64,000 bases of DNA, from NCBI GenBank assembly GCA_031213475.1, contig JARUPZ010000012.1:6608878-6672877 (forward strand), read 5' to 3'. Position 1 is the stretch's first letter. Each line of letters opens with the position of its first letter. The position numbers were made by a program, and so were the translations under genes. The notes below the pieces were generated by a model. It worked only from the letters and a program-made list of their open reading frames with translations. It did not search any database and was not told where the DNA came from. Origin of the DNA: Nereocystis luetkeana (lineage: Eukaryota; Sar; Phaeophyceae; Laminariales; Laminariaceae). Positions 1,650 through 61,235 of the stretch are shown here, piece after piece.

Positions 1650-1665
1650 TACCTGGTACCTGGTA
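1650..1665. repeat. Two nested TACCTGGTA scars
   Basis: The 16-mer TACCTGGTACCTGGTA consists of two 9-bp scar motifs sharing one TA. It lies 13 bp beyond MITE A1. This is the pattern expected if a TA created by a first scar was hit again. Confidence 0.6.
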
Positions 1666-1875
1666 CATTATTACGCATTGGTTGGCGGCAATGGGAATGT
1701 CATTCCCATTGGTTGGCGGTGCATTTTCAGTCCAGGAGTTCGTTGTTTGTCCAGAGGCGTTACAACAGCAGTACTTGCGGCTGGAACTTGGATGAAACAT
1801 TTTTTTTCAAGAATTTTTCTTCAGATTTTGTTTGTTTGTCGATACGACTACTACTTACTACTACGAGTACAGCTA

Positions 1876-1980
1876 TTTCGGGGGACCTAGAGTAAATAGG
1901 ACCTACGGTTGACACAAAACATGTATGTTTGACTATTTTTACTAACAATATTTGGTCCTATTTACTATGGTCCCCCGTAA
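1876..1980 (-). mobile_element. MITE family A, copy A2
   Basis: Same palindromic element as A1. The right end CCCCCGTAA is intact. The left end has decayed to TTCGGGGG. Confidence 0.8.
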
Positions 1981-3800
1981 AAGCTACACGGCGACTTCGA
2001 CGACACACATGACGACATCGCGGCACGCGACAATACAATCTGCACAAGACCTCCGTAGCTGCTGAAGACGACGCAATCGTGCCGCTGCCGATGGCACCTA
2101 CAAATCATACCCAGGTACTTACACAGACATTAGTATCATATTTATTTACTGCTCTGCTGTTGTTGTTGTAACAGTTGTTGTTCAGTTTTGTTGTTGTCTG
2201 TAGACGAGATATAGCGAGAGGACAACAACGAGAACGAAACGACAGCAACGTTATACTGCTGCAGCTGTATGTACGAGGTACTATTAATAATAAAATAATG
2301 CCTGCCTGCCAGTGTTCAACACTTTGTGCCCGCCAGCAACGACCGTTACAAAGTAGTCTGATTCTACTGTATGCAATAAAAAATGGGTGTACATGCAGGT
2401 ACTACTACCACTGCTAGCTCTATGTACAGCAGTAGCAGGGGGGTCCGTGGAACGCACGTAAAAAGCAAGGAGCGAGTAATCGTGAATTGGGAGGGAACAC
2501 ACACTACCGCAGTAGCTGGAGAAGAGCGAAATGGAATAACTGGAACCTTTCTATAACTTTTTTTTAATTGAAACTACTACCAAGTTAACACCATACCTGG
2601 TACTACTTTGTGTACGCCCAAGAGAAGTAGCCGGTGTAGGGTAATGCCGTGCGCGGGACACATACAGTAGCATGCCCTGCCAGATTTACCACTTCTTGAG
2701 CAGGTTCTCGTTGTTACTGGTTTTGCGTACGGCATAGATCGGAGAAGAGCAGCTTTTATCAATTCCAGTAACAAAGGATGCTGCCAGGTGGGGACCGCGA
2801 TTCCCATCCGTCTCCTGTTTTCTCACTTGGAATACGCCTCCCACGTGATACGAAATACCTGATACAATCCAATCCCGTAAGATCTGGTAAACAAGTAATT
2901 TTTGCTGACCGTCCAGGGCAGCACCATACCACTAGCCCACTCTGATGAACCGTACATGCAGATATATATAGGAAAATCGTGGAAACCCGGTTCCACGAAC
3001 TACTGTAGAAAATGAGTAGAATATGCGGCTCCTTCAAACCCACTCTCACTACCGACACGATAAACAACAGCTCTTCTTCCAAGTACTACTGACTGTACTT
3101 GAATCAGGATGCATTCGATTGAGTAGAATATTTAGAAAAAAATACACGATTCTTCAAAAATTAAGATGCAGAGACCCCAGCCATACCTCTCACTGGGACG
3201 CAAACAAAACCACGAATATATATACCACGTTCGCTCGATATTCTTGTGGCACCCGTTTTAATCTCCAAATAAACAACACGCAAAAATCCAAACTACTGTA
3301 GCTACCGTGCCGATGAAAAACAAAAGGTGTAAAGTCTTGCGTGTACTCGTAGGCAACCCCCGGCTGCACTCGATAAAAAAAGTCAACGAGGTCACCGCCT
3401 CCTCCTCCTCTCTAGAAACCCCTCTCGTTCATGGCTGCGTCGGTATATTAATAAGAACCTAGACATGGACCAACTTCACTCATAGACCCTTTTAGAAGTG
3501 CACTCCCCCTTCGGAGAAAAATTGCTTCAAATCAGAGACAGACATGTTTCTCTAGTACAGCAGTGCAGTTCCAAAAGGGATATGCCAGCTTGACATCGGC
3601 GGCTGACGTTATCATAAAGGAAGCATAACACCATCGGTCAACACAAAATGTCAACCGAAGAGTTATGTTTCGATCATAAATAACTCAATGGAGACCAGAC
3701 ACGCATTAATTTCTAACTCCTCTCGACCCCCCCACCCCTCCCCCGGAAAAAAAAGCCTCCACTCAAGCTGGCACGTCCGCAAGCACGCGGAGTAGTCCTC
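1981..3800. other. Intergenic, no gene recognised
   Basis: Short ORFs on both strands show no recognisable domain. The stretch contains a TATTAATA scar candidate (2282-2289), a TACAGCAGTA (2425-2434) and a TACCTGGTA (2594-2602). A loosely repeated motif with GAGTAGAATAT occurs near 3013 and 3121. Confidence 0.5.
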
Positions 3801-5065
3801 TATGAAAATAAAAAAGCTGTCACAAACAAGCAACAACTACCAAGACGAACTCCTTTCGCTTCCCCACGCTGCCAACGAAGCTAAACCAACAGATGATTTA
3901 GGGGGCATCTCTGGGGCACACGCACGTAAATACAGACATAAAATCTCTATATGGGGCTTGCCCCTCCTTCATCCCCTCCCGTACCCCCCTCCCCCCTCCC
4001 CCTGTCCAAGTCATGGAACAGGCCCTCGAGTTCGATTGTATGTGTTCCAGCGCTGGGGCGTACCACTCCTTGTCCGGCAAGGCAAGGACTGTTTTTGTAT
4101 AACATCAATAACTAAATGTTCCTTACATTTTCGAACAAGAGATAAAGTGCCGTATACATTCCGGCCCGAGAAAAAATTCTCCCGTGAGCGGTCCACCCAC
4201 CCACCCAACCCATGCATCGTTGTTTTCACACCGTACCGTAACTATAGTGACGGCAAAAAGCGAGAAACGAAAACAAGGATCCTTCCTTTCTGGCCGCACC
4301 AAACACAAGAAAAAACAAAAACAAAACGCAACCACCACCGGGAGGGCGTTGTCGCTTCCACCTCACCACCAAAGCAAGCTCGATTCCCTGCACAGCTTAT
4401 TTCTTTCAGGAAAAAAAAAACCCAAAAAAACAGCCTTCCCCTTCTCCCCCCGTCCCCCCAATTCGAACATTTCTTGGGAAAAACCGTACAAACACGACCG
4501 GGGGTACCTCTCTGTAGGTTCAAAAGTTTAGGTTGACGTTTGAGCCGCTCGAGGTCTTCTTAAGTCTAACGCATTCTCTTTCCTCGACGATTTGTTTTTT
4601 TTTTTGCTCGCCGGTGGCACCGATGATACCGCTCGGCTCTGTGCGCAGATCTCGTTCCTCCCCCAGCCCCCTTTGTGTGACGACGCATGGCAATTAAAAA
4701 AAAAAAAAAAAAAAAACACGCGGCACCCCAGTCTCAACGAGATGAAACCAGCTGTGAGCCATCTTAAAAAGAGCTCAACACGTTTATCCACCAGCCGCAC
4801 GAGCGTAACAAGCTGGAACGAGCTCAACCAGCAGCAACAAGCTAACGATCCCAACAAGCTTGGCCAGCTTAACGAGCTGAACAAGCCGAAAACAATCCGA
4901 ATAAGCTGGCCGAACGAGCTGAACAGGACACTCTTAACCCTTTCCGGACAACCGCAGTCCCGTTTAGGGGAAAAAAACTCAGAACTTGTCTGTTTTTTCC
5001 CCCCAAAACGGCGGAACAAGCTGGAGAAAACAGGGCAGTTCACGGGTCCGGTCAAACTCTCGCGG
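3801..5065. other. Intergenic, low complexity, degenerate AACGAGCTGAAC repeats
   Basis: A 244-codon plus-strand ORF (3802-4536) is proline/lysine-rich, matches nothing I recognise and is probably chance. At about 4795-4925 a diverged ~12-bp unit like AACGAGCTGAAC recurs, interrupted by other sequence. Bases 4934-5025 are a partial family P MITE. The region may include TPT 3' UTR sequence, but no evidence decides this. Confidence 0.4.
4934..5025. mobile_element. Partial family P (TTAA, piggyBac-like) MITE, P1
   Basis: Begins TTAACCCTTTCCGGA and runs into CGCAGTCCCGTTTAGGGG, as in the complete copies near 17 kb and 49 kb. The right inverted repeat is eroded after CCCCAAAACGG. Confidence 0.55.
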
Positions 5066-5200
5066 GTCAGGCCGGGTCGGGTCGGGCAAGGCTGACCCGA
5101 TCTGACCCGTGAGGGTTTGAAATTTCCTGACCTGACCCGACCCGACCCGATCCGACCCGACCCGATCCGATCCGACCCGACCCGACCCGACCCGTGAGGT
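5066..5200. repeat. (CGGGT)n / (ACCCG)n inverted pentanucleotide repeat
   Basis: A run of GGGTCGGGTC is followed within 20 bp by a longer run of CCCGACCCGA on the same strand, so the two arms can pair as a hairpin. The bordering phrase CCGTGAGGTTT recurs in the second locus at 45090-45265. The unit therefore looks like a dispersed repeat and not an isolated microsatellite. Confidence 0.7.
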
Positions 5201-6319
5201 TTAAAAAAAAGTTCCTGGCCCGAAAACGACCCGTGGATCGAGTCATGACCCGCAAGAGCCCTGGAAAAAAAAAAAAACGTTTCGATATCGGCAGTCTTTC
5301 CAGCTGTACCAATCTGGCCGTGAAATATGAGGAACGTTGGGTCTTCCTATTAATCAACAAACGGTCCTTATATTTCCACCCCCCGTCCTTGCGTCTTATC
5401 CACCTTGCTGGTTCCTCCCCGGCGCGTTTCCGCGCGTCCCCTCGCTCGTCATCTCCGGACAGAGCGATCGACGACCTCCCCCTTACACCAACAAAAGGGC
5501 TGCCCGCCGATACAGAGAGCCAAGCCCATCGCACACTCGGGGTGCTGTCTCTCGCCGAGGGCCACGCCCGAACGACTTCTCCGGGTCAGTTTTTTTTTTA
5601 TTCATCGACCCCTCTCTCCTCTATAAATATGTTGGGTGCTCCTCTTTTCTGTGATCGATTGTGTCAACCTATAACGCCTCTGCACGCGTCACGCAGCTTT
5701 TGAGCAAAAAACCCTCTTGCCCCGCCGCCCGCACAGGAAGACGTTGTTTTTTTCATTTTGATAGATGCAACCAACCAGCCAACCGATAGCCAAACACAGC
5801 GCTACCACAGTTGCAGACTCGCGGTCGCTTGCAATATTGACGCCCGTTCGTGATATTCATTGAACGGGCGGGGGGGGGGGGGGCACTGCTGCCATTTCTC
5901 ATTCCTATCCGCAGTAGGGGAGGGTGTGTGTGTGTGGAAGGGGTGGTAGGTTCTGTGTGCGGCGTCTCAAACGCTTGTTTTTACATCGAACCCGACAGCT
6001 GCAGTCTTCCCTCCTCCTCCCCTCCCCGCCTACCCCCCCTTCCCCACCCCCCCCTTCGTTAATTCACAAAGTACCCGCTGGCATCGCTGTTTAAATCCTA
6101 ACAACGACCGCAACGCTTAACGGCGGCACTGTTCGGCGCGCGGGTGAAGACAACCCGTCGTCATACACTCCCACCTCTCCAAACAGCTCTTCCGTGCCTT
6201 CGGAACGAAGCAACAAAAAAAAAAAGCACGCCGTGCGGAGCGGCGAAGCAAAAAATCTCGCGACCGAGAAAAAAAAACACACACACACACACGGACGTAA
6301 AACACACACACACGTTTGT
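5201..6319. other. Region downstream of the TPT stop codon
   Basis: No protein gene is recognised. It contains G- and C-rich runs and a short CA/TG tract at 6281-6313. On the minus strand this is immediately 3' of the TPT stop, so at least part is probably its 3' UTR. No polyadenylation signal could be fixed by eye. Confidence 0.4.
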
Positions 6320-9300
6320 TCACGCGGCGGCCGACGGGGCAGCAGACGCGGCTGCGGCTTGCGCCTTCTCCACCTGCCCCCCCTTATTAGCGGCGCCGCT
6401 CTCCAGCTTCGCCTTCGTCATGGAGTAAGCCATAACGCCTCCGATGGCGGTGATGCACCCCGTGAGCCCCAGGGGGGTGAACTTGTGGTTGAGCACCACA
6501 ACGCTCACGATGATCATCACCACGCGCTTTAGGGTGTTGCCGAGGGCGTGCGTAACGGGGTGAATGATGCTCAGCGCGTAGAAGGAAACCTCGTTGTATC
6601 TGTCGGAAGGGCGTTTGTGGTGTATAGTTACGAGATGGGAGAAGCCAGGGCCGGGGGGGGGACGGGACGGGACGGGAGGTGGGGGAGGGGGGGGGGGGGG
6701 GGTACTCATTTGTTGCTTGCCTTAGCCATTGGACCATTGACCGCGCATCCCTTCCGAGAAGGAGCGGCCGGGGCGGCGGGGGGGGGTTACTTATTTACTT
6801 ATTTGCTTCAAGCCAAGGTGACAATTGACCACGCATGCCTTTCGAGGCGGAGCTAGTCCTACTCCTGATACGAGGCGCCTTTGACAGCGGGTCTTTCATG
6901 ACAAGCATTCCATATATGACATAGCGGCACTTTTGCTTCGGGGCGGGGGGTCACGGGTGCGGCCGTGTGCCTGTATCAGTGGCCAATCAGAACACAACAT
7001 CCAAACTTATCGTGGTTCGCTTTGCTTGCAGGCAGGCCGACAGATGGCGGCGGACGCTCAAGCAGGGGCGTACCATTGCCATCGGCATTCTCGCACAAAG
7101 GCTTTTGCGACAGCGGGAGGGCGCAGGACACAACTCTAAAAGATGTGTCCGCCTGCGATACGAGCGTTCCTCGCCCAGAGCACCCACTACGACTCGACTG
7201 GAACCATTCTTCCCCCCGCGGTTCAGTGCTCCGACCACACTAACCTTCCTACCTACATCCTTCTCTCCTTCCCTCCATCCTTCGCTCTCTCTCTCCCTCT
7301 CCTTCCCCCTCCTCCCCCCCTCCCCCACGACCATGCATAACATGAGTACCCCCCTCCCCCTCCCCCTCTCCTCCCCCCCCCCCCGCGCCTCTCTCTACCC
7401 CCCCCCCCCCCCCCCCCCGTGCCCCTCCCTTCCCTGCCCCCCGCCCCCCATTTCTCCCTCCTTCCGACCAAGGACTCACAAATAGAAGAACAGGCCGCTG
7501 AGGAAGGCGTTTTTCACCAGAGATCGTGGGCTGTGCCCGGCACTCACAGCCGCGCTCCACACGCTCACCGCCTTAGGCCCCTCGACGCCCATAGCCAAAG
7601 GCGTCAGCACCAAGCACCCCAACATGGTCATCACGGCGTACAGGTTCCCCGCATCCATCGGTGCTCCACCCTGAGGAGCGCCAGTGGACGGAATACAGCC
7701 ATCAGGAGAGGAGAGGAGGAGGGGGGAGGGGGGGGAGGAAGGAGGAGGGAGGGGGGTAGGGTAGGAGATAGGGGGGGGGGGGGAGGGAGGAGATAGGGGG
7801 AGGGAGGAGATAGGGGGAGGGAGGAGATAGGGGGGGGGGGGGGGGGGGAGGAAAGGAGGAAAAGGGCGGGGGGGGGGGAGGCGGGACAAGGTAGGGTACG
7901 GAGTTATGAGCCAAGCCGTGTGCCGGATAAGCGAACCAACGCGTCCGAGCAAGCAAAAAGAAGGCTGGAAACAACTCAGGATGGTTGGTTCGTGGATGTT
8001 TTTACGCCTCCTGTCACCTGACCGTGAACACTACTGCCGCAGTACAACCCATACCCTTTTTCACTACGTACTGCGAACATGAATCTACTCTCAATCCCAA
8101 GCAAAGTGTCCCTGAAACGCCGGTGGGTGTGCAGCACCAGTAGTACAGTAGCTCTACTGTGAACGATGAAAGGGTCAACCAACCCCTTCAGACCAGGTCG
8201 CACGTCGCCGGGAACATAACTTTACACTCCAGACAGCAACCGCCCTGGTAGTCAGTAGCCACGAGCTCGTTAGTTGCGTGGGACGGGGGGGGGAACTCTG
8301 TGCTATATATAGAGTAGCTGAGTGGAAACCCGGGGTCATGTTGCGGTAGTACTGTACTTCTTTTTGCGTGAGCCATCTTCGTCTCGTATATATATATATA
8401 TTAATGGCTTTTCGGACCTTCCCAGGGCTCCTTGAGGTCGTAAAAATTTTTACGTGAGAAAAAAAAACACATACACACACAGCACAACAACAACAACTAC
8501 AACCATTGCTGTGTGAACACGGGGGGGGGCGTGTTTTTTGGGGGGAGTCCATCGTGGACTCTGATTGACTGTGGGACCCCGCAATGCTTGAAAAGGGGAC
8601 TTGGGGACATACTTTGGACGTACAAAATAGTACCAGGTACTGCAGTAGCAGTACCAAGGAAGGCCGCGAGCTTTTTATACGATTTGCTACCGTAAGCTCC
8701 AATCTCGTCGAACAATACAAGTTCGGCGTCGAATGCGAGAGCGGGGGTTGTACTCGGTATCATGCATGGCCGTGGTCGAGTGACCAAATACCCCCTCTCG
8801 TGGAGGCGTGGGGGCGGGGGGGGGGGGGGGGGTAAGAAACGCCCCGGGCAAGATGCGCCATCATTGCCCACCGCCTGTAGCTACGCGTACCATCGCTGCC
8901 GGCAACACTCTGGGACAACCTGGGCTGCGGTACGAACTGCCGCGAGAACAGCAACCACAATACACACAAAACGGGACGCGATGTATATAGATACACGGGT
9001 AACCATTTTTACAAGAAACAGCACCTCAAGAAAAAGAAGACGCAACACCCCAAAACACACAACAACACCCCACGACAAAACCACGTCAGCACACCCGACG
9101 GTGTACGACGAGGAAGAAAACCGAGCTCTCACGCCCCCCTGCCTGCCCGCCCGCCCGCCCGCCCGCCCGCCCGCCCGCCCGCCGTACAAGAACAAAGCGA
9201 CCAACAAAGCTTACAGCAAATAAAAAGGCCACCGCCACCACCACCGCCACCACCACCACCACCCCCACCACATCCCCACCCCTACCTTCTCGTCCCTCGC

Positions 9301-12234
9301 CATGTACATCTTCCCGAGCACGCTCCGGGACGCCGCCGACGCGTTGGAGGTCATCGCCGCGGCAAAGGCGAGCACGCTGAAGCTTATTTCGCCCGCCGAA
9401 GCCATCGCCACGCCCCCGATCACGGGCAGGAGGGTGAGGTACACCGGCCACGGCATCGCCGACCCCGCCAGGAAAGACAGCCCCGAGGTGAAAAGGGGCT
9501 CTGCTCCCTTCACCACCTGTCGGCGCACATGAGACGCGATAGGTAGGGGGGGGGGGTACTTATTATCGTGCATGGCCGTGGTCGTTTTGACCATAGACCC
9601 TCGCATCCCTACAATGCCGGGACGGCGCACGTCGGGTTTCCACCGACCAGGCAGACATTGCTAGGGGGGGGGGGGTACTCATTTGTTGCTTGCCGTAGTC
9701 GTTCGACCATTGACCAGGCCTCCCTTACGAGACGGACGGGGGGGAATCTCATTTGATGCTTGCCTTAGTCATTTGACCATTGACCGCGGATCCCTTTCGA
9801 GACGGAGCACCGTTTCTGCTCCTGATAGAGACACCTCCAACAGTAGGGCGCTCATGACGTTGTTTCCATATATTACATGGTAGTTTTTTTTCTGATATCA
9901 TGTCGTCCCCGTCTTCTTTGGCCGCCTGTGGCTGCCACCATCTATTTCCTAACATAGGGATCATTTTCTCGCTGCTATCTATTACGGGGGACCATAGTTA
10001 ACAGGACCTATGGTATACATAAAAACCTATATATTTAACCATTTTTACTAACAATATCTGGTCCTGTTAACTATGGCCCCCCGTAATAGTGTACCAGACT
10101 CCTCCAAGTCACATTCGTCTATTTCCCTCATCTCCTCTTCTAACACCTCCCCGTTCCTCCTCGAAACATTTTCACGTTCTCCTACCATGTGCGTTCTACT
10201 CTCTATTGCTTTGCCGGCACGGGCACATCTGCGCATCTACTTCCTCCTCCTCCTCCCGGCTACTGGCATACTTATTTCTTCTTTCTGGCAGGTGCAGGTC
10301 TCCCACACGAAATCGCAGTTTCAGCGTTTTCGCGAAGTCCATTGGGCCGTGCAAATACTTGTTCGTCCCTATCCCTTCGCTTAACCCTCCGAACATCTAC
10401 GGGGGTAGGAGGGGGGGGGTCAACAGGCTACTGCTAATTACCCATAGTTGCCGATACACGGGTAGGCGTCAACAGGCTACTGTTAACTATCAATAGCCGC
10501 ATATGCACGTGTAGGGGGGGGGGGGGGGATCAACAGGCTACCGTCAACTACTAACAGTTGCAGAAACACAGGTAGGGGGGAGTCAACAGGCTACTATTGA
10601 ATAAAAACTGTTCGAGACACACAGGTAGGGGGTAGGAGTGCAAGGGGGGGGGGGGGGGGGGGGGTCAACAGGCTACTGTTGAACTATTCATAGCTGCATA
10701 TACACCGGTAGGAGGGGGGAGTCAATATACTTTTGCTAATTATTAATAGTTGCAGATACACCGGACGTCAACAGGCTACTGTTGACTATAAATGATTAAC
10801 TACCAGGTATAAATGGTTGTATATATAGAAGGGTAGGGGGTAGCTGTGGGAGGGGGGGGGGGGTCAACAGGCTACTGTTAACTATTCATAATTGTAGATG
10901 CACTAGTACAGGATGGGAAAGGGAGGGGGGGGGGGGTGTACTCGATAGGAGAGATGCACTCGATCTCATGCATGGCCGTAGTCGTATGACCATAGACCCT
11001 CGCATCCCTACAAATGCCGGGACGGAGCATGTCGGGTTTTCACCGACCAGGCAGACATTGCTTGCACCAAGCGCGAAGCGCCGTGAGGTGTCTGGCGAGT
11101 CGCATGAAGGGTGAGCTGCGTCCTACTAAGGACGGCTTTTGAGGCGGGCTTGCATATGGATGACAGCTTCAATGAGTTGATTTAATTTCCCGTGTAGGCG
11201 TCTCCAGAGACAGCAATGGTAGCACTACGTTGCTGCCTCTTGGATGCCTTACCATAAACACTACGAGATACGATCATTCCCACTTGTGCGGAGTAAAGGC
11301 TGTTCACCTCGCACAAACGTTCTAACTCGGCAACCAGCTGTGGGTGTTGGGGGAGGGGGGGGGGTCAACAGGCTACTGTTAACTATCACCAGTATTACGG
11401 GGGGCCATAGTTAACAGGACCAAATATTATTAGTAAAAATGGATAAACATATACCTGGTAGGTTTTTATGTATACCATAGGTCCTGTTAACTATGGCCCC
11501 CCGTAAAATAGCTGTAGATACAAGGGCAAATAAGGTAGCGAAGGGGTGGGGGTGCAGCTCTAAGAGCGCTGAAGCCATCCTACCACTGCAAGAACGACCC
11601 CTCACTACGCAACTCGAAGCCGTCCTCCCTGTAAAACATCGAGCGCAGTTCTAAAAAGTGTGCCGACAAAAAAAAAAACTCACCACGTTAACCCTTTTGG
11701 GACAAAACTGCAGCAGTCCCGTTCTGGAGACGGACTGCTTGCCACCATTTTAGTGGTTACGGGGGGATCGTAGTAAATAGGACCAAATATTGTTAGTAAA
11801 AATTGAGAAGCATACAGTTTTTTGTATGTACCGTAGGTCCTATTTAATATGGTCCCCTGCAATAAAAGGCTAAAAGGCCCTTTTATTAATAGTGCGTACT
11901 GCAGTATTGTCCCAAATTAAATAAAAGGCTTAAAAGTCCTTTTACTAATATTACGGAGGACCATAGTAAATAGGGCCAAATATTAATATTGTTAGTAAAA
12001 CTAGCGAAATATGTAGGTTTTTATGTGTACCGTAAGTCCTATTTAATATGGTCCTCAGAAAGAGTGCGTGCTGCACCGTGCAGGAACCCCAAGGCCGACT
12101 CTAATTCCAAGCGATTAGTCACAACAACGGGGAAGCGTAGTCCTGAAACGGGGATAAAATACTTCCTGTTAGGTGACCAGAGGTAATGGCAAGACGCTCA
12201 TCACCACGCCCTTGCGCGCGTCTGTCTGTCTGCC

Positions 12235-12271
<37 letters not shown>

Positions 12272-18953: not shown

Positions 18954-19246
18954 GTGTTTGTGCCAGGTGCAACAAGCTAAATGCAGCGCGTGCGTTGTGT
19001 GTTGCGAAAAAGTGGTGGGCTTCCCACATCACGCCATTGAAGAACATGCAACTCCTGAATGATTTAAAGATTTGTTTTCGGTTTAAAATTTCGATCGACA
19101 CCATGCATGACTCAACCAACGTAATAATAACGCGAGTACTGCTGTATGCAAGTACACGCGAGCACGCGGGCACGCATTACGAAAGAGGGACATCGCTCGC
19201 CGATACCGCAGGCCTAGCAATAGCAGAGCTTCTTCGCCACTACAGT
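18954..19246. promoter_or_regulatory. Short shared 5' region between divergent TPT and ADH genes
   Basis: The TPT reading frame opens at or below 18953 on the minus strand, and the dehydrogenase ATG is at 19247 on the plus strand. At most about 400 bp therefore separate the two start codons. No TATA box is evident. A TACTGCTGTA at 19137-19146 and a TACAGTA just before the ADH ATG belong to the short-motif class discussed as possible transposon scars. The bidirectional promoter role is inference from geometry. Confidence 0.4.
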
Positions 19247-48823: not shown

Positions 48824-48860
<37 letters not shown>

Positions 48861-51800
48861 TGTATATAGGGTATATATATAATTATACGCGCCGCTACTT
48901 TTTGTTTTCTCTGTAGCGCCTGCGCAACCGACTACGCTCTGGGTGAGCGCTTTTTTTTTTTGTCGCCGCCGTGTGAGTCCGGCTGCCTTTGTTATCTAGC
49001 GTCGAGAACGCAAAAACGGGCCAAGCTCTTCCCTCTCCTCACTTTCCTGTTCGTTCGTTCGTTCGTTCGGTTTTCGTTCGGTTTTTCATCACGCGCTCTC
49101 CGCTTGGTGCGCTCATCCGCCGATACGAACGGTGCGTTGTTGTTCTTGCTCGCCCGGCGCGACAACCCAGAGTTTTGCTGCTGCTGCTGCTGTCGGTTGC
49201 TTTGATTTGTCGTCGTATCGGTTGTCGTTGGCAGGTTTGCTTCGAGGATAAGAACGCCCTGGGGCGGAACACCCTGGTCGGCTTGGACATGCGCCGCACA
49301 ATGGCTTCGCCCTTCACCAGCTTCAGGTCAATACAGTAGCGTAACTCAGTGCCCTTAACCCCTTTAGAACTCCAGTCCCGTTTTGGGGACAAGCCACTCG
49401 AATTCCAAGTGATTTGCCCCCAATTGTCCCCAAAGCGAGACTGCAGCCCTAAAAGGGTTAAGGAGCCTATAGGGGGAGCCGCGTATTGTTTCTGAGGCTC
49501 CTCACTTGATTATAGTACACTTCGAAGTAGGAGATCAAGCGAATATTTTCCGTGTGATATACGGAAAAAGAGCCCCCCCCCCAAGTGTTGGAGGTGTCTC
49601 TCCTTGTTCGTGGAGCAAGTCTCAAGGAACTAAAAGTACGTATATAGTATGTGTAGTCGATTCACTGCCTCAACTATCCGCCGGAGGGGAAAAGTTCGAG
49701 TGTTGTCATTCGCGCACAAGACTGCAGGAAGAAAGTTAGGTTTTGTAGGAATGGTGTTACCTGTCGAAGGGGAGGAGGCGTGGTCAATGGTCAAATGAAT
49801 TCAGGCAAACATGTAAATGAGCACCCCACACACACCCACACCGAAAATTAACTCAACTCGTTGAAGCTGTCATCCATGTGCAAGTCCGCCTCACAAGCGG
49901 TTCTTGTTAATAGTACGTTAGTAGGATGCAGCTCACCCTTCTTCATGGGACTCGCCAGACACCTCACGTTTCGCTTCGCGCTTGGTGCAAGCAACGTCTG
50001 CCTGGTCGGTGAAAACCCGACGTACTCCGTCCCGGCATAGTAGGGATATGTGCGAGGGTCTACGGTCATGTATACGACTACGGCCATGCATGATATCGAG
50101 TACCCCCCCCCCCTCCTCCCCAAAGAAAATGCCACCTTGCACGCCGCTTGACAAAACCCCTTGCGTGGTCGCTTGCGCCCCACTTCAGCGTTCGGCTCGG
50201 CAACAACCGTTTCGGCCAGCCGGGCGCTTGGCAGGTGTCCTTCTTCAGAGACACCATCGCCCCCCACAGCGGCTTCGGGGGGGGTGGCGGCGGCTACGCG
50301 AATAACGCCATCGGCACGGCGTCGTCCGCCCCCGTCTTTTCCACGGCCGCCCCGGCGGGCACTCCGAGGTGCGCGCGTGCGTGCGTGCGTGCTTGTTGTT
50401 GATGTTGTTTTCTTCACACGAAACCTTTTTTTGTCCTATTGCGGGGGACCATTAAATAGAACCTACGGTACATCCAAAAGCCTATATATATCGCTATTTT
50501 TACTAAGAACATTTGGTCCTGTTTACTATGGTCCCCCGTAATGCCAAACGACACCGGTACGGTAGCACGAAGTGTCCGTCCTGATTCTTCATGTTACATA
50601 GAGTGATGAAATACCTGGTACAAACTGTATGGTATCAGGCTGTAATGCAAGCCAAGGGAAAAGCTGCAGCCTTCGATTTGTGTACATTGCCACACGAGCC
50701 GTATACGTACATGCCGAAACCTCCAGGTGGTTTCCACACAGATAAGGAGGCGGGACATGCACGCCCCGCGGTCTGGAGAGAACAGGGCGAAAAGCCGACC
50801 AGTCGCCGCGCGCAAGTGAAATCTGCGCGCAGACTGTACATATCCGCGCACCAGTGTAAGCTGCGCAGTGTCTTTTAAAAAGGTGCACAAAAAGGCAGGC
50901 AGGAAGCGAACGATCTCAACGTTCGATTTTTTTTCCAGGAATTCGACCCCTCACCCCACCCCCATCCCTGCAGCCGACCATGTGTGCGGGGAGGAGAGCC
51001 TTAACTCCGCACAAGGGAGATGATCGTATCACGTACTGTATGTAGTGTGTACTGTAAGGTACCTGGTATATGGTAAGGCACCCACGAGGCAGCTACATAG
51101 TATACCCATTGCTCTCTGTGGAAGTGGCCACACCAGAAACACAAATAATTTCATTCAATTGTCATCCGTTGCAAATCCGCCCCACAAGCGGTTTTTAGGG
51201 TCACTATCATCGGAGAGCTTTTTTTTTCCTCATAATTTCGAAAAAAAAATCGCGCGCCATTTTTCAATCCTCCATATTTTCCTGTTTTTTTTTTCCAAAT
51301 ATATGAAAATGAACGAACTTGTTTTTTTCGCTTCTGCATAATTCCACGAATAGTGACAGAACGCCTCCGTATATTGATGCATATCTCCACTTATTTCCCA
51401 ACTTTGGAAATTATGGAAAAAACGCTCTTCGATAAGAATGAGCCTTAGTAGGAAGCAGCTCACCCTTCATGCAACGCGCCCCAGCACCTCACGTTCCGCT
51501 TCGCGCTTGGCTCAACCAATTTATGTCTGGTCGATGAACACCCGACGTGCTCCGTCCCGGCATTGTAGGGATGCGAGGGTCTATGGCCATCCGACTACGG
51601 CCATGCATGAGATCGAGTACACCCCCCCCCCCCCCCGCGCAACAAATTCATCCACCTCGCTCTGCCCTGGACTAACGTACGTACGTCGCTCGATCGCGTC
51701 AACGCTTCCTGCCTTGCCACCTGTTTTGCACGCTCTGTGCGTGCCACCCTGGATTTGTCACCCGTCTGACGCCTCAGGGACCTCGGAATATTGGCTCGCT

Positions 51801-54800: not shown

Positions 54801-57800
54801 GACGTGCTCCGTCCCGGCATGGTATTCAATAGGGATGCGAGGGTCTACGGTCATACGACAACGGCCATGCTTGACATGAAACACCCCCCCCCCTCCCCGT
54901 TTCTAGATGTATAGAAAGCCTACGACGCAGTATGGAGGAATAGATTATGGAAAAAACCGTGGGAAATAGGTATCAGAGGAAAGATGTGGAGAACGATTAA
55001 AAATATGACGGAATGTGCGAGAAGTGCTGTGATGCTGGACGGAGAAATGTATAAATATGTTGATATTTTACAAGGAGTTGCACAGGGATGTACGTTGTCA
55101 CCCAACCTATTCAAGATATATATATATATGTATATATATAAATATTATACGAAGTATATATATTGTATATTAACGACCTGATAGTAGCAGTTGAAGCAGC
55201 AAGACAGGGAGTCTCGGAGGGAGAAGAGTTGGTGTCGGGATTGGAGTTTGCGGATGCCTTCGTGAGGATATCAGACACACCCGAACGACTGCAGAAACAA
55301 ATAGAGAAGGCTCTAGAATACACTAGGGGATGAAGGGTTACGGCGAACGTCAAGAAATGCGCAGTAGTTGTTTGTAACGAAGATAAAGGTGAACCCGAGA
55401 AATTTCAGTTGGAAATGGGGAGAAGATGAATTGCCGATCGTAGACCAGTATTACGTACCTTTTGGCGTGGAGATATCGAAAGACTGCTCTTGGGATACAC
55501 ATATAGCAGAGGTAGCAAGAAAGGGTAAAGCACACGTAGGCAAGATGGATGCGATCTCAACAGACTCGCACCTTGACACCAGGATTAAGAGATGTATCCT
55601 GATGAATGTGATCGTACCAAAGCTAGAATACGCAGGAGAAGTGTGGGAAGGAAACGCGAAACTCGAAAACAGTTGGAAGCCGTACAGATGACAGCAACTA
55701 AAATAATCCCCAAGATGCTCAAGTACGACTAGTAATACAGTATTAAGAGCAGAAATGGGAATGCACCAACTCAAGACAAATATAGGTATGATAAAGTTGA
55801 AGTGGTATAACGTACCAGGTAAGGAACATGCCAAAAAGAGGTTACCGGCCATAGTTGATAAGAGCTGTATGGGAGAAAGTAACGAAAGGGCGAGCTGGAA
55901 TAAGGTGGGATAGCGTACTTGAGAATTTTTGGAAGGATATAGGGGGAAACCAAGAAGAGGTGATGCCCGCCGGGAAGTTTGGGAAGTACAAGGCAGAAGT
56001 AGAAGAAAGGACAGAAAGAAGGGAAAGGCTAGCGCTAAGAAGCATGTGGAATTGGAAACAAACACTTAAAGATATACGGGGGAATGAGGAAAGGAATAGG
56101 AATGAAAACGTAATTACACGGCCCAATGGACTTCGCGTAACACGCTGAAACTGAGCTTTCGTGTAGGTGACCTGGACCTGCCAGAAAGAAGAAAGACGCA
56201 TACCAGTAGCCGGTAGGAGGAGGAAATAGATGCACAGATGTGCCCGTGTGGCAAAGCAATAGAGAGTAGAACGCACATGGTAGGAGAACGTGAAAATGTT
56301 TCGAGGAGGAACGGGGAGGTGTTAGAAGAGGAGATGAGGGAAACAGACGAATGTGACATGGAGGAGTCTGGTACACTATTAATAGATAGCAGCGAGAAAA
56401 CGATCCCTATGTTAGGAGATAGATGGTGGCCACAGGCGGCCAAACAGAAGGGGGATAGGATAAGCATTTTTTTTTTGGTGTAATATATGGAAACAGCGTA
56501 ATGAGCGCCCAATTGTTGGAGGGATGCGTGGTCAATGGTCAAACGACTAAGGCAAGCAACAAATGAGTACGCCCCTCCCCCCCCCCCCCCCCCCCGGCTG
56601 CGCATTCTACCTGCCCCCTCCCTCTGCGGCTGGTGGCTTACGTTTTACTTCGGACACCTGTGCGGAAGGCCCAACACTGCTCGGATGGTACACCGCTGCA
56701 TCAAGTGCCGCCGTTTGGTGGGCAGCGGACGGTAAGCGCTCCGCGTATAGCTTGCACGTGTCGGACAGATCATATCAGATCAGTGTGCAGATCATATAGT
56801 AGATAACTGTGCAGATCACACAGATCATGTCAGATCACTGCGCAGATAGCACAGATCATATCACATCATATCAGTGTGCAGATCGCACAGATCAGATCAG
56901 ATTACTGTACAGATCATGTGATGTCAGTGTGCAATTTCCACACAGATCGTATCGGATCACTGTACATATCATACTAGATCACTGTGCAGATCATACAGAT
57001 CATGTCAGATCACTGCGCAGATATACGCACATCATATACCAACATATCAGTGTGCAGATCGCACAGATAGTATCATATCACTGTACAGATAATATCGGTT
57101 CACTGTTGAGATAGATCATACAGATCGTATCAGATCACTGTGCAGATGGATCATACAGACCATTTTCACGAATCTTGCTCGTCATCTGTAACAAATTTCC
57201 ACCGGCTTGATACACGATTCGGTGTTCATACATGCAGCATTTGAGGAACTGCACGTGATATATCTGCATGATCTATCTGCATGATCTATCTGCATGATCT
57301 ATCTATCTACCACTCTGCCCCGAAGTACGAGGACCGTTTGTATCAACTATCGCATGTATCCAAACGAAAAGTCTGGAGAAAACCTTTTACAAGGAAACTC
57401 TCGGAAAACTCTGGGGAGCATCCCGAGGAGTCTACCAGTTGTGCATGACTGTCCCGCGGAGTTTTACGCGCGTTTTACGACCAACAAAGTCAATTCCTAG
57501 AGCCCAAAAATATTTTCCATACTCGTAATAATAGTTGGTCAGTCGTAATGAGCGGGGGGGTGCACTCGATGGGAGAGGTGTACTCGATCTCATGCATGGC
57601 CGTAGTCGTATGGCCATAGACCCTCGCATCCCTACAATGCCGGGACGGAGCATGTCGGGTTTTCACCGACCAGGCAGACATTGCTTGCACCAAGCGCGAA
57701 GCGCCGTGAGGTGTCCGGCGAATCGCATGAGGGGTGAGCTGCATCCTACTAAGAACCGCTTGTGAGGCGGACCTGCACATGGATGACAGCCACAATGTGT

Positions 57801-58341
57801 TATTATAATTTCCGGTGTAGGCACTTCCAGAGACAGTAATGGGAGTACTATGTAACTGCCTCTTGGGTGCCTTGCCATAAACACTACGGTACCTGGTACG
57901 TGATACGATCATTCACAATTGTGCGGAGTAAAGCTTCTTTACCTCGCACAAATGATCCAACTCGACGACCAGCTGTGGGCGACCGCCGAAAAGAAAAGAA
58001 AAAAAATCCGGGTTCGGGGACACGAAAAATGCGAATGTTCCTCCTTGTATTCCGAGAACGTTCCTTGCATTCTCTTGTGGGACTGAGTGATGCAGGATCG
58101 TGCGATTGTGTCTACGATCTGTAGATGAGGCAGATGATCTGATGAGACAGATACGTTTTTTCCCGATGTGTAAAGCTTGCGCGAACGCGCGCGCTCTGCC
58201 CCGCCCCGCCCGCGATTTTCGTTGTTTGTTTAGGTGCGAGGTTTTGCCGAGGGGGAGCTGGGCCGGGCGAAGGAGTACGTTCTCACTCAGGCAGAAGTCA
58301 GGGTGCCTCTCCAGAATTTTCTCGGAAAAATCTCAGCGCAG
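35811..58341 (+). CDS. Plastid Omp85/Toc75-type outer-envelope protein translocation pore, 3' end not found
   Basis: A POTRA-plus-beta-barrel protein expected to import or insert proteins at the plastid envelope. Exons: 35811-36434, 38338-38409, 40164-40260, 40758-40813, 41385-41490, 42781-42851, 44853-44945, 45819-45900, 48400-48521, 49235-49326, 50189-50368, 51778-52009, 53270-53686, 54194-54277, 56669-56731, 58234-58341. All phases agree and give 833 open codons. The start MTRRRMSPRSLLMSSLAAIL is a signal peptide, followed by GGVDSFATG with Phe at the expected +1 of a heterokont plastid presequence, then a Gly-rich linker. POTRA features: WYQYEGYLLSSVSDA, SFSVSEPVV and TRPQTVAKGLGMK. Barrel: EVCFEDKNALGRNTLVGLD, SVRLGNNRFG, and the family hallmark VRGFAEGELGRAKEYVL in the last exon found. 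About 60-100 residues of final strands are missing. They may lie beyond the window or be displaced by the retroelement at 60.6 kb. Exon 3 to 4 is the least certain junction. Confidence 0.88.
36231..36290. repeat. GGA-rich stretch coding the Gly linker of the Omp85 leader
   Basis: GGA/GGC codons from about 36219 to 36310 encode a glycine-rich linker between the presequence and the POTRA region. The other plus frame reads poly-Glu. Placement in the protein depends on exon 1 being unspliced here. Confidence 0.6.
36731..36840. mobile_element. Family P MITE, P6
   Basis: TTAACCC at the left and AAAAGGGTTAA at the right. Arms CTGCAGTCCCGTTTTGGGG and CCCCAAAAACGGGACTGC. Near the left end an extra ATACCAGGGTATA interrupts the arm, a variant of the TACCAGGTA scar. 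Confidence 0.85.
37250..37485 (-). repeat. Family D repeat, copy D1
   Basis: Reverse complement of the sequence at 52.7-52.98 kb. Shared blocks include GGCARCATGAGCTAGATCAT and GAAAGATCTAGAT-type phrases. Family unknown. Confidence 0.55.
39274..39409. repeat. 68-bp tandem duplication
   Basis: Two nearly identical units starting ACCGCTGCGAAACGATCG. They differ at one or two positions, so the duplication is recent. Confidence 0.9.
41164..41280 (-). mobile_element. Family B retroposon, 3' fragment B8
   Basis: G tract, TGTACTCGATATCATGCACG and GTCGTATGGCCATAGACC. Antisense to the Omp85 gene, ~100 bp upstream of exon 5. Confidence 0.75.
42666..42728 (+). mobile_element. LINE family L, 3'-end stub L5 with poly(C) tail
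   Basis: GGTCAATGGTCTAATTAATGA then GGCAAGCAACAAATGAGTACG and about 20 C. Lies 53 bp upstream of the acceptor of Omp85 exon 6, in sense orientation. Confidence 0.8.
42852..44852. other. Omp85 intron 6 contents
   Basis: Contains a GATC-rich family D-like fragment near 43090-43160, T-rich stretches at 43520-43560 and the (TGTC)n array at 44690-44795. No further gene or complete element recognised. Confidence 0.45.
44690..44795. repeat. (TCTG)n microsatellite
   Basis: TCTG units interrupted by TATG and CCTG, about 60 bp upstream of the acceptor of Omp85 exon 7. Confidence 0.9.
45090..45265. repeat. (CGGGT)n / (ACCCG)n inverted repeat, second locus
   Basis: GGGTCGGGTC on one arm and CCCGACCCGACCC on the other, with GTGAGATTTTGAAGA and GTGAGATGTTGAAGA phrases between. 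Matches the organisation at 5066-5200. Confidence 0.7.
46140..46663 (-). mobile_element. Family B retroposon, long copy B2
   Basis: Complete-looking copy of about 520 bp: G tract, CATGCATGGCCGTAGTCG, CACCAAGCGCGAAGCGCCG, AACACTACGTAATACGATC, then a distal part GTAGTGAGCGGCATGTTTT and CCAACCTATATAAAATAG. Antisense to Omp85. Confidence 0.85.
46664..47215 (-). mobile_element. Family B retroposon, long copy B3, tandem to B2
   Basis: Collinear with B2. It ends with the same distal part, but its last segment carries TACCTGGTA at 47199-47207, at the point where B2 reads CTATATAAAATAG. Confidence 0.85.
47222..47290 (-). mobile_element. LINE family L, 3'-end stub
   Basis: GTATTCATTTGTTGCTTGCC and CATTTGACCATTGACCACG, reverse of the L 3' end. 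It directly abuts B3. Confidence 0.7.
47433..47842 (+). mobile_element. LINE family L copy L6, 3' part with poly(C) tail
   Basis: Sense sequence corresponding to the C-terminal coding part (CAGATGTGCGCTTGTGGCAA zinc-knuckle region) through AATAAATGAGTACG and a C tract. It carries the empty version of the MITE A site (GCACTAGATAGCAGC near 47579). Confidence 0.8.
48185..48370 (+). repeat. Family B tail plus long C/T tract before Omp85 exon 9
   Basis: CATACAACTACGGTCGTGCA and GTTATCGAGTACA are the family B 3' end in sense orientation. They are followed by about 150 bp that is nearly all C and T, ending 30 bp before the exon 9 acceptor at 48399. Confidence 0.75.
48652..48712. repeat. (GGT)n microsatellite
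   Basis: GGT/GTTGGT repeats in Omp85 intron 9. A (TA)n run follows at 48833-48857. Confidence 0.85.
49355..49461. mobile_element. Family P MITE, P7, TTAA at both ends
   Basis: 107 bp from TTAACCCCTTTAGAACTCCA to CTGCAGCCCTAAAAGGGTTAA. Long inverted arms and exact TTAA at each end. Inserted 29 bp inside Omp85 intron 10. Confidence 0.85.
49776..49835 (+). mobile_element. LINE family L, 3'-end stub
   Basis: GTGGTCAATGGTCAAATGAA, GGCAAACATGTAAATGAGCA then a short C/CA tail. Decayed. Confidence 0.55.
49850..50122 (+). mobile_element. Family B retroposon, 3' half, copy B5
   Basis: GTTGAAGCTGTCATCCATG through GCTTGGTGCAAGCAACG, GACTACGGCCATGCATGATA and TCGAGTACCCCC. The tail is about 70 bp upstream of the acceptor of Omp85 exon 11. 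Confidence 0.8.
50439..50541 (-). mobile_element. MITE family A, copy A11
   Basis: Left end TTGCGGGGGACCATT with a small deletion in the arm. Right end GGTCCCCCGTAA. Inserted 70 bp inside Omp85 intron 11. Confidence 0.85.
50990..51636 (+). mobile_element. Family B retroposon copy B6, interrupted at 51205-51435
   Basis: Distal part 50990-51200 and proximal part 51440-51636 match family B in sense orientation and end GATCGAGTACA plus C tract. The ~230-bp A/T-rich interruption is unique and may itself be an insertion. The distal part carries TACTGTA at 51034-51040, a second TACTGTA and TACCTGGTA (51060-51068) where other copies have short empty sequence. Confidence 0.8.
52240..52470. repeat. 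Imperfect ~75-bp repeat around ATACACAGCTAT
   Basis: ATACACAGCTAT followed by TTGCTGGCA and GGCTGTG recurs about 2.5 times. In Omp85 intron 12. Confidence 0.6.
52686..52730. repeat. (ATCT)n microsatellite
   Basis: ATCT tetranucleotide run adjoining the family D repeat. Confidence 0.85.
52735..52975 (+). repeat. Family D repeat, copy D2
   Basis: Inverted homologue of D1 at 37.25-37.49 kb, rich in GATC and ending GATCATGATCTGTAGATGA. Confidence 0.55.
53130..53262. repeat. (CAG)n, poly(C) and (CTG)n tracts before Omp85 exon 13
   Basis: CAG/CAA repeats at 53132-53166, a C run at 53174-53190 and CTG repeats at 53238-53261 immediately before the acceptor at 53269. The CAG and CTG arms are complementary and could pair. 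Confidence 0.7.
54586..54691 (-). mobile_element. MITE family A, copy A12
   Basis: Ends TTACGGGGGGCC and GGTCCCCCCGTA. Standard core. In Omp85 intron 14. Confidence 0.9.
54780..54895 (+). mobile_element. Family B retroposon, 3' fragment B10
   Basis: GTCGGTGAAAATCCGACGTG, GGGATGCGAGGGTCTACGG and CGGCCATGCTTGACATGAA then C tract. It abuts the truncated 5' end of LINE L8. Confidence 0.75.
55813..55821. repeat. TACCAGGTA scar in LINE L8
   Basis: L8 reads AACGTACCAGGTAAGGAACATG. The reverse complement of L3 reads AAAGTAAGGAACATG at the same place. TA has become TACCAGGTA, shifting the LINE reading frame by 7 bp. Confidence 0.85.
56377..56384. repeat. TATTAATA excision scar of MITE A in LINE L8
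   Basis: The site is occupied by MITE A3 in L2 and empty (CTAGATAGC / GCTATCTAG) in L3 and L6. L8 shares the flanking variant GGTACACTA with L2 but has only TTAA plus the duplicated TA. Confidence 0.85.
56755..57320. repeat. GATC-rich degenerate tandem repeat
   Basis: Phrases such as CAGATCATATCAGATCACTG and GTGCAGATC recur about ten times at irregular 30-60 bp intervals, starting 23 bp after the donor of Omp85 exon 15. TCTATCTGCATGATC triplicates near 57262-57300. Confidence 0.75.
57550..57995 (-). mobile_element. Family B retroposon, copy B4, with a TACCTGGTA scar
   Basis: G tract, TGTACTCGATCTCATGCATG, CACCAAGCGCGAAGCGCCG and CCAGCTGTGGGCGACCG. At 57890-57898 CACTACGGTACCTGGTACG replaces the shorter CACTACG(TA) of other copies. 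Antisense to Omp85. Confidence 0.85.
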
Positions 58342-58497
58342 GTGAGAAGAGCTTCCTTTTTTCTTGTGATTGCTGTTTCGATAGTTGTTTTTGTTCTCTA
58401 CAGGCAGATGGGTAAAACATCGCCACACTGCCACATACCCTTATACAAGTATGTACTGTACCAGGTATATATACATATATATATATATATATATACT

Positions 58498-58635
58498 CGT
58501 ATTACTATTATTATTGTTGTTGTTAGTAGTACCAGGTAGTTATTATTATTATTATTATTATTATTATTGTTATTGTTATTGTTATTGTTATTATTATTAT
58601 TATTATTGTTATTATTATTATTGTTATTATTATTA

Positions 58636-58707
<72 letters not shown>

Positions 58708-58764
58708 TTATTCTTATTATTATTATTATTCTTATTCTTATTCTTATTCTTCTTCTTCTTCTTC

Positions 58765-58808
<44 letters not shown>

Positions 58809-58812
58809 GTTA

Positions 58813-58865
<53 letters not shown>

Positions 58866-58870
58866 GTTGT
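58498..58870. repeat. Long (TTA/TTG/TTC)n microsatellite
   Basis: About 370 bp of trinucleotides, mostly ATT with blocks of GTT and CTT. It is preceded by TACTGTACCAGGTA and a (TA)n run, and a TACCAGGTA scar lies at 58530-58538. Confidence 0.95.
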
Positions 58871-59375
58871 GGGGCGGAGCCCCGGGCAGGTTCTCTCTCT
58901 TATTATGTGGTCGTGGTGTGGAGGACACACCGAGGTGGGTTTGGTGTCTCGAGTCTTCGAGGAACGGAGTGAGTCACCTATGTTGACCTTGAACTGGTGG
59001 GTAATGAGGCGGTACTATCTATAGGGGAAGGGGACCTGGTATCCACATCACCCCCCCTCTTTTTTTGAGACGTGCACTGCGCGTCTTAAATAAAAAGGCG
59101 TCGACTTGGGGAAACGGGGCGACTAGGCTAACTTCCTAGATGTGCGACATTAGCACCACGCATTGTTACCATATATCGACCGACAAATTTATCGACACCG
59201 TAAACTCGTGTTGAAAAACACGCACGAGAACAAGTTGATTAATTGCTACTGGGATATTGGGTATTATGTGGAATACGACGTACTTGAAGCCAGGGTGACA
59301 CTGTGTATACAGCTACCACCTGTGTACTTGGCTGCCAACATAAAAATTGTGACCGAGAACAGGGTTACCATACTA

Positions 59376-59480
59376 TTACGGGGGACCATAGTTAACAGGA
59401 CCAAATATTGGTAGTAAAAATGGTTAAATATATAAGTTTTAATGTATAACATAGGTCCTATTAACTATGGCCCCCCGTAA
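59376..59480 (+). mobile_element. MITE family A, copy A13
   Basis: Ends TTACGGGGGACC and GGCCCCCCGTAA between TA duplications. Core GGACCAAATATTGGTAG. Confidence 0.92.
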
Positions 59481-60002
59481 TAAAGATACTGGCCATTTGC
59501 TGTGTGGGTAACCTGTAGTACTAACTGTGTATTTTACCCTTTTCACGAAATGCGGACAGCTTGGCATTTCGAGTGGCTTCATGAAGATGTGACATGGGTC
59601 TGGCGTTCACACTTTTTGCTCTACAGCAGCAATGCTATGGGGATCGCCAATAACAATGGGTCATGGTATGACAGCGTTATTAAGACGTGGCACTGACTGT
59701 CTCAGTAAACAAACGTACGTTGTTGGTGTGCACCAAACCGACGCCAAGAAGAGAGAATGCCAATGAAGACAAGCGGCCTTCTTGCGGAATGTATATACTG
59801 TACAGAAAATGCACCTCTTTGGTTGACTTTACCAAGAACTCTCGGTAACTCCACACACGGAGTGTTTGTCTGTACCAGGACAAACACAGTAAACACCGTG
59901 ATACATTTTCTGGCAAATAAACAAAACGTTACCAGAATGGAGTGAGCGTTGCTGTAAGCCAAATATTAGCATGACTAAGAGTTGATGTTTCATCTAGAGC
60001 TA

Positions 60003-60107
60003 TTACGGGGGGCCATAGTTAACAGGACCAAATATTGTTAGTAAAAATGGTTAAACATATAGGTTTTTATGTGTACCATAGGTCCTGTTAACTATGGTCC
60101 CCCGTAA
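60003..60107 (+). mobile_element. MITE family A, copy A14 (near-consensus)
   Basis: Ends TTACGGGGGGCC and GGTCCCCCGTAA with CTA and TAG flanks. A useful reference for the family. Confidence 0.95.
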
Positions 60108-61226
60108 TAGTAGGTGCCCCTACTCTATCTGTAAGCTAAAAGTGAGGCAGTGATACAACCAAACACGCTTACTCAACCATCAAACTCTGACGATTATCAC
60201 CAAAAACAACTTGCAGCCTTTTTCACAGGGGGTCAACCTGGATATTATAAGATCTGCTCGACATAAATGCTGTCAGACACTAACTGTGTCGATGATACAC
60301 GTACTGTGTTGTACGACGCTTACAGCGGTACGCACATTCACTATACTGGTACAAAACAACAAAACTAGACGACAGACTACGTGTCATCCATAACTTCCGT
60401 ACTGGTAACTCAGACTGCGGCACTATCGGAGTGATTGCGTAGGCTCTGCCTCCACAGGTTGCTAGACCGGGGGCGCGGGAGTTAGTGTTTGCGATTCAGG
60501 TGAACTTTCCTGAATTTTCTCAAGGTATGAACGATTATGCTCGTGGCAGTGAGGAATTTGGCGACGATGATACCAACCATCGCATATTCGAACCCGCACC
60601 GCGATACCCTTACTCGGAATCGGACATTAAACGGGGAAGATCGACCTTTCCAACGCTCGTGGTTGACAAATGCTTTCAACTGTCCGGGGGCCAATGCATG
60701 CTTGTGATACGTCTCTTTCGAGATCTGGCATTGGTAACTGCGCGCCCTAGGAACATCTGATTGATATTTTCGAAATCAGGATCTGCGAAAGCACTGCGTT
60801 GGCGGTACGGTTCCGTTCTTCCCAGCTGTACTGATGTCTGTCTCTTTTGACTGGTCGATTTTCGAAACACGATAAACGACTGGAGACAATCGATGGCGTA
60901 CTTGGTATGGACCACGTCACGGGCTGAGTAACTTATTGTCGGGGTCATCTTGCGCATTATGGGGCTGATGCACCGACACTAAATCACCAGATTGAAACCG
61001 TTGAAAACGTAGGTGACCATTAGATGCTTCTCGAGCAGCAGAACGTTCATCAAGGTTTTGGCTTGCTAGTTCGTGCGCAAGCTGCAGATTTTCGACGGTT
61101 TCACGTGTACACTGTAAAGCTGTATCGGGAAGTTCTGCCTGAGGCTTTCCCATGATGATGTCAATGGGAGGCGTGGGCATGCGACCAAACATGAGGTAAT
61201 GGGGTGTCTCATGTATCGTACTACTA

Positions 61227-61235
61227 TACCTGGTA
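61227..61235. repeat. TACCTGGTA scar breaking the Gypsy integrase frame
   Basis: The minus-strand integrase frame runs through ...MAHNTAY and hits a stop right after the motif. The conserved continuation resumes at once in another frame. The shift equals the 7-bp insertion that turns TA into TACCAGGTA (minus strand). Confidence 0.85.

Follow-up and report, generated by a model that had tools for sequence, protein, structure and literature searches.

The closest described systems are transposons that target TA. In the passages cited here, Sleeping Beauty leaves CAG (PMC8151067), and TACAGTA and TACTGTA have been used as Sleeping Beauty footprint primers (PMC3432063). Reported footprint ranges are 2-4 bp and 0-3 (PMC7913693), 0-4 (PMC9976928) and 1-4 (PMC9632168), and ISY100 cleavage is placed two nucleotides inside (PMC2170065). 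Ectocarpus is reported to carry 17 Tc1/mariner families with almost 12,000 copies (PMC12477816). Here we describe a nine-base word, TACC(A/T)GGTA (TACCWGGTA), in a 64,000-nucleotide stretch of Nereocystis luetkeana DNA, called the window, which lies within contig C12 of a 465,085,209-bp genome assembly (G000). Its copies behave as 7-bp insertions at plain TA, their flanks show a symmetric target preference, they occur genome-wide in very large number, and at one TA they are accompanied by a spectrum of variants. We consider it probable that a TA-targeting cut-and-paste transposon, bounded by CCAGG...CCTGG, left TACCWGGTA as its footprint on excision, counting together a stagger of either 5 or 3 nt. 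By analogy, the CCWGG word acts like a Tc1/mariner footprint; we treat the element as a candidate only and do not claim membership of that superfamily.

Abundance of the word

The initial annotation had listed at least 35 exact copies, about 70 times the roughly 0.5 expected by chance. The exact 9-mer stands at all 35 starts and a scan shows no others; on the plus strand, 16 copies read CCAGG and 19 CCTGG. The copies, found by exact-word scan unless another source is given, are the following.

1650-1665: two joined copies, TACCTGGTACCTGGTA (starts 1650, 1657)
2594-2602: copy
8631-8639: copy
10801-10809: copy, no empty counterpart found (exact-word scan and empty-site probes, 328 kb)
11452-11460: copy in a MITE-like interspersed repeat, plain TA in sister copies (repeat comparison)
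16241-16249: copy
16632-16640: copy
17158-17166: copy
17402-17410: copy
17636-17644: copy
17688-17696: copy joined to a half copy, TACCAGGCA, at 17695
21772-21780: copy
23916-23924: copy
24852-24874: three joined copies in alternating orientation, TACCAGGTACCTGGTACCAGGTA
25611-25619: copy
31559-31567: copy
32440-32448: copy
33156-33164: copy
33789-33797: copy
36492-36500: copy
37632-37640: copy
37924-37932: copy
39736-39744: copy
41754-41762: copy
47199-47207: copy in a repeat with diverged sister copies that lack the motif (empty-site probes)
50612-50620: copy
51060-51068: copy in a repeat whose sister copies are shorter by 28 bp, not 7 (repeat comparison)
55813-55821: copy in a repeat whose sister copy at 14004-14128 has plain TA (empty-site probes)
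57890-57898: copy in a repeat whose sister copies are shorter by 12 bp, not 7 (repeat comparison)
58459-58467: copy
58530-58538: copy
61227-61235: copy at the end of an integrase-like open reading frame (ORF; 61224-61787, minus strand), no empty counterpart found

Shuffling, named beforehand as the test that could overturn the excess, did not reproduce it: 100 dinucleotide-preserving shuffles of the window gave a mean of 0.52 copies and a maximum of 3, an excess of about 67-fold. The abundance extends well beyond the window. Genome-wide, TACCWGGTA occurs 182,395 times and its reversed counterpart 1,744 times, with one exact copy of TACCWGGTA per approximately 2.55 kb. Our sample comprised 20 stretches of 10 kb at round coordinates and two adjoining ones (named by L-numbers), and the word was found in 21 of these 22, the sole exception being L016, a stretch rich in TAC-type microsatellites. 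With L016 left out, a comparison of all TA-N5-TA words, of the kind proposed in the initial annotation, placed TACCAGGTA at 43.8 times its third-order Markov expectation (274 kb of sample plus window, both strands), the highest ratio of any such word with an expectation above 0.3. Shuffles, Markov ratio and reversed word together rule out chance or composition as the source of the count. Since the word is palindromic around the central position, TACCAGGTA reads as TACCTGGTA when the opposite strand is taken. Random orientation is therefore enough to produce the mix of A and T, which taken alone does not point to mismatch repair, the process that the initial annotation had invoked by analogy.

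Insertion at TA and the range of inserts

Comparison of repeat copies with and without the motif bears out the proposal of a TA-targeted 7-bp insertion with TA duplication. We converted 103 motif copies or runs into empty-site probes; most flanks do not recur in the compared sequence, and the clean recurrences show plain TA, as do the cleaner repeat alignments (e.g., 11452, 55813, L003:1501, L015 and L028:5925). In this respect the copies are as Tc1/mariner footprints are, with the exceptions of 57890 and 51060, whose sister copies lack 12 and 28 bp, respectively. Plain TA had also been described at four named families: it holds for the MITE-like copy at 11452, whereas neither the 10801 minisatellite nor the Gypsy integrase copy at 61227 has an empty counterpart in 328 kb of compared sequence. 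Among 30 copies of the repeat around 11452, two have an insert at that TA, namely 11452 and a decayed insert in L020; L085 carries a third. That the motif is never replaced by TA had been named in advance as a finding that would speak against insertion; within this genome, several sister repeat copies have plain TA in its place.

A motif-blind comparison of TA-duplicating insertions across 301 kb gave 21 of 6 bp, 17 of 3 bp, 17 of 9 bp, 14 of 7 bp, 11 of 5 bp and 10 of 4 bp, followed by smaller classes. TACCWGGTA accounts for nine of the 14 7-bp insertions, and TACGAGGTA, among the remainder, is one change away from it. As L085 and L087 were fetched for carrying the motif, counts are also given without them: three of the 14 come from L085, leaving seven of 11. 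Other words were inserted at TA as well. The 5-bp class is made up of TACWGTA in six of 11 cases (five of 10 without L087) and TATTGTA in two. Outside L016, the 6-bp class consists of TATTAATA in five of seven cases, two of them in one repeat array; this word reaches 8.2 times its Markov expectation in the sample. The insertions, from repeat comparison, are as follows.

L020:2417, L021:3527, L025:9674, L026:270, L087:78: TAC(A/T)GTA as TA insertion
Window 3001-3007: TACTGTA, inserted at TA in the form of the classical Tc1/mariner footprint
L015:8790, L015:8852, L070:5793, window 11981, window 56377: TATTAATA as 6-bp TA insertion (TA-TTAA-TA)
Window 44300-44308: TACGAAGTA, another 7-bp TA insertion

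A further word, TACGAGTA, stands at 4.7 times expectation in the sample, and the 301-kb comparison of TA-duplicating insertions holds no insertion event with it. It resembles the Minos footprint.

If the copies are excision footprints, a Tc1/mariner-like element would have inserted at TA and duplicated it, and on excision each flank would retain up to five terminal bases. The overhangs would pair as CC(W)GG, those of CCAGG-ended termini matching at four of five positions, and end joining would fix CCWGG between two TAs. Trimming would yield variants such as C+CCTGG, CCA+TGG, CC+GG and CTGG.

A footprint-like spectrum of this kind is present at one TA genome-wide. With both flanks of the repeat TA at 11452 fixed and 2-32 bp allowed between them, a scan returned 226 inserts (reversed control, 0), and contents are described here for 100 of these matches. 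Sixty are 7 bp long; the single motif in exact form accounts for 54 (33 CCTGG and 21 CCAGG, four at a neighbouring TA), and 66 contain the motif when joined copies are included. Written out with the TA, the others include TACTGG (6), TACCCTGG (4), TACTTCGAAG (4), TACCGG (2) and TACCAGA (2), with single cases such as TACCATGG, TACCAG, TACTCCGGAG, TACTTCAG and TATCAACCTGG. Among these remaining inserts, CTGG (6), CCCTGG (4), CCGG (2), CCATGG (1) and CCAG (1) fit a left CCAGG remnant and a right CCTGG remnant, imprecisely joined, as would be expected of such footprints. A number of separate events is needed, because the inserts lie in either orientation, use two adjacent TAs and fall into several sub-types.

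These variants also bear on the stagger. A footprint could instead arise from a 3-nt overhang, CCA, with both ends filled in and joined by a one-base overlap to give CCWGG. CCATGG, that is CCA+TGG, is present (one of the 100), and the superfamily usually has a 2-3 nt stagger, as in known mariners according to the passage cited (PMC2170065). However, fewer than four terminal bases cannot account for CCCTGG (4), CACCAGGG (1) and two joined forms containing CCAGGG or CCCTGG, and a 5-nt CCWGG overhang, pairing at four of five positions, better explains the uniformity of the inserts. We thus regard the shorter stagger, which is a variant of the same excision reading, as the less likely form, although one deserving of some weight.

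At the same repeat TA, five of the 100 inserts are 8-bp palindromes, CTTCGAAG in four cases and CTCCGGAG in one, and they resemble ends of other TA elements after fill-in. The single-TA scan places them at the following positions of G000.

C3:7540874: 8-bp palindromic insert
C3:14161132: 8-bp palindromic insert
C5:9371140: 8-bp palindromic insert
C10:8570435: 8-bp palindromic insert
C15:4006542: 8-bp palindromic insert

Target preference, joined copies and age

With the two sides pooled, the flanks of the motif depart from those of all TAs chiefly through A or T at -7, A at -6 and a purine at -1. In 65 of 95 sites both flanks have A or T (W) at -7, compared with 26% of background TAs, and the symmetric pattern extends 7 bp to each side; when held-out sites and other TAs are scored with a position matrix, the area under the curve (AUC) is 0.795. 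A palindromic word with symmetric flanks might also be a binding or regulatory site conserved by selection. Yet the word is a clean insertion in several repeats whose sister copies have plain TA, and its decayed forms are almost as excessive as the intact one. In 264 kb we counted 96 exact copies, 121 with one mismatch and 478 with two, the controls being 11 letter-permuted palindromes with medians of 36 and 412 for the latter two. The excesses are approximately 95, 85 and 66 for zero, one and two mismatches, the last lying within the control spread and hence weak. As one-mismatch forms are nearly as excessive as exact ones, the word is not preserved, and we give conservation by selection hardly any credence. 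The series of excesses is roughly near the expectation for a process that has run steadily through a long period.

The motif itself fits the target preference (TACCAGG provides T at -7, A at -6 and G at -1), and an old scar therefore invites a new, adjacent insertion. Nine joins were seen, against 3.7 expected even with the target preference, and this surplus is one reason to consider heptamer slippage or tandem duplication, or the spread of the word inside amplified repeats. One repeat family does have the word in its body, and bacterial genomes contain heptamer arrays of it. On the other hand, 94 of 101 motif runs are single copies, repeat copies vary by presence or absence of the word, and joins occur in both orientations (eight same and nine opposite, from nine joins in the sample and eight among the genome matches listed), which disfavours tandem duplication. 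We accordingly rejected tandem duplication for most copies and find slippage or spread within repeats very improbable as a general explanation. Beyond the joins, spacing shows only a slight surplus at short distance (window and first 276 kb of C1).

Source element and known systems

The initial annotation saw no intact source element in the window, and a search bounded by CCWGG likewise found none. No element of the form TACCWGG...CCWGGTA with inverted repeats was found in 276 kb; a family of a few thousand copies could be missed there because 276 kb is 0.06% of the genome. In the inverted-pair search, the 15 best of 23 pairs all start with the TA inside the word and are therefore full copies. 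DDE_1 (PF03184) has 28 matches in the genome, none linked to CCWGG ends among the stretches inspected: nine stretches covering 10 of the 28 showed no inverted-repeat pair with such ends. DDE_3 (PF13358) has no genome match at E 0.001. Two transposase stretches, L091 and L093, share segments that are 99.7-100% identical and have no clear ends.

Two side observations concern these transposase stretches. L099:204-2091 and 3705-5592 are copies of each other in inverted orientation, with 99.5% identity across 1,888 bp and a DDE_1 match in each. L096, L097 and L098 carry a DDE_1-bearing stretch that C2 and two small contigs share at 100% identity for at least 4.2 kb, and are perhaps duplicate contigs of the assembly.

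Pairs of the word 10-40 bp apart number 16,023 in the genome, against 482 for the reversed word. An element of 26-28 bp seen among the listed pairs, TACCTGGTACCAAA...TCCCAGGTA, was rejected as the source: it occupies 227 places against approximately 178 expected (from 182,395 copies and 1/1024), and several of 20 fetched stretches show a scar inside an ordinary repeat. A pair 673 bp apart on C4 (L071) was also set aside, as the sequence past the word differs between its two ends.

These results give room to a micro-insertion without a parent element, in which a transposase- or nuclease-like dimer would open TA and CCWGG would be added through abortive end-fragment transfer or templated fill-in. 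The lack of a source element in 276 kb or in the transposase stretches agrees with it, as does the strong dominance of a single sequence. Against it, CCATGG, CCCTGG, CTGG, CCGG and other palindromic inserts at the same TA resemble imprecise footprints, and the classical footprint TACWGTA is likewise present as a TA insertion. We judge such a process unlikely, and slightly more so its strictest version, a five-base payload in which a dimeric enzyme carrying or templating CCWGG adds 7 bp at TAs directly and the site never held a larger element.

Excision of a transposon remains our preferred reading, and several results besides the missing source element and the transposase searches weigh against it. 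A motif-blind comparison of repeats in 276 kb, with no TA duplication required, yielded 24 differences of 7 bp, of which five held the motif, and differences of 4, 6 and 9 bp outnumbered those of 7 bp; among TA-duplicating insertions, the 3-, 6- and 9-bp classes exceed the 7-bp class, largely through L016. TACWGTA and TATTAATA show no such preference at -7, where W stands at 0.50 and 0.51 against a background of 0.49, and would thus derive from other enzymes or be chance words for the most part. The scanned TA was picked for its 11452 copy, so that its motif share may exceed that elsewhere, and its 226 inserts do not each stand for a separate event, because a repeat copy can gain a scar and then multiply (one such repeat family was seen). 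The insert spectrum is more uniform than end joining as described, the main footprint class is 5 bp against a reported Tc1/mariner range of 0-4 bp in the passages cited (a range that is not a strict definition), and, given the little clustering, local hopping is not evident. The interpretation of the initial annotation is partly supported: the TA-targeted 7-bp insertion with TA duplication and the footprint-like spectrum at one TA bear it out, whereas the 5-nt stagger is putative, as is the source element with CCWGG ends, which was found neither in 276 kb nor in the nine transposase stretches.

We infer a former larger element, together with its end sequence, stagger and transposase. Scars gathered over a long time could vastly outnumber living elements, and a few active elements could suffice, because neutral scars would accumulate at the per-genome rate of their origin. 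If the copies are footprints, one element family left approximately one exact scar per 2.5 kb genome-wide, with one-mismatch forms nearly as many in the sample. They would then be a long record of cut-and-paste transposition from which the insertions are mostly gone, readable by age (through decay), target preference and repair outcome. The element's 5-base overhangs would almost pair with each other, which may explain the clean repair. On this reading, 7-bp insertions at TAs would contribute notably to sequence change in the lineage, and the predicted CCWGG ends provide a search key for the putative transposon.

Two further features of the window have relatives elsewhere. The Gypsy-type reverse-transcriptase ORF has named matches in Ectocarpus, and an alcohol-dehydrogenase-like exon matches a protein with the label Undpi1, taken here as Undaria, at 84% identity across 28% of the query. 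Together these matches make a brown-algal host very likely.

Among the matches listed, we did not find TACCWGGTA as a footprint in open papers, nor a title that treats it as a repeat, nor, in the parts of those papers that were accessible, a dominant 5-bp footprint at such density. Of the described systems, Sleeping Beauty is similar in that TA is duplicated, the core is palindromic with a middle A/T, and the footprint equals the overhang, according to the cited passages (PMC7827188, PMC8151067, PMC3432063); its TACWGTA form is itself found here as a TA insertion. It differs in its core of three bases (CWG) rather than five (CCWGG), as well as in the enormous number seen here and in the source element, which was not found. 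Passer and ZB share the TA target and have variant footprints of 0-4 and 0-3 bp, and Passer has a palindromic target consensus, AAGTACTT, in the accessible parts of the reports (PMC9976928, PMC7913693); the favoured positions here are instead -7, -6 and -1, and the footprint is 5 bp. The Tc1/mariner elements of Ectocarpus belong to the same brown-algal host group, and we count them as support for the footprint reading in brown algae, although the main text, as far as it was available, does not use the word 'footprint' and names no CCWGG ends (PMC12477816). Finally, the thrice-joined word, which has no match in viral_contigs, occurs as bacterial heptamer repeats in 40 stretches (L029-L068), several of them in the same metagenome-assembled genomes (MAGs). 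There, (TACCWGG)n forms same-orientation arrays in eight of the nine stretches displayed, with few isolated copies, whereas the algal word is scattered.

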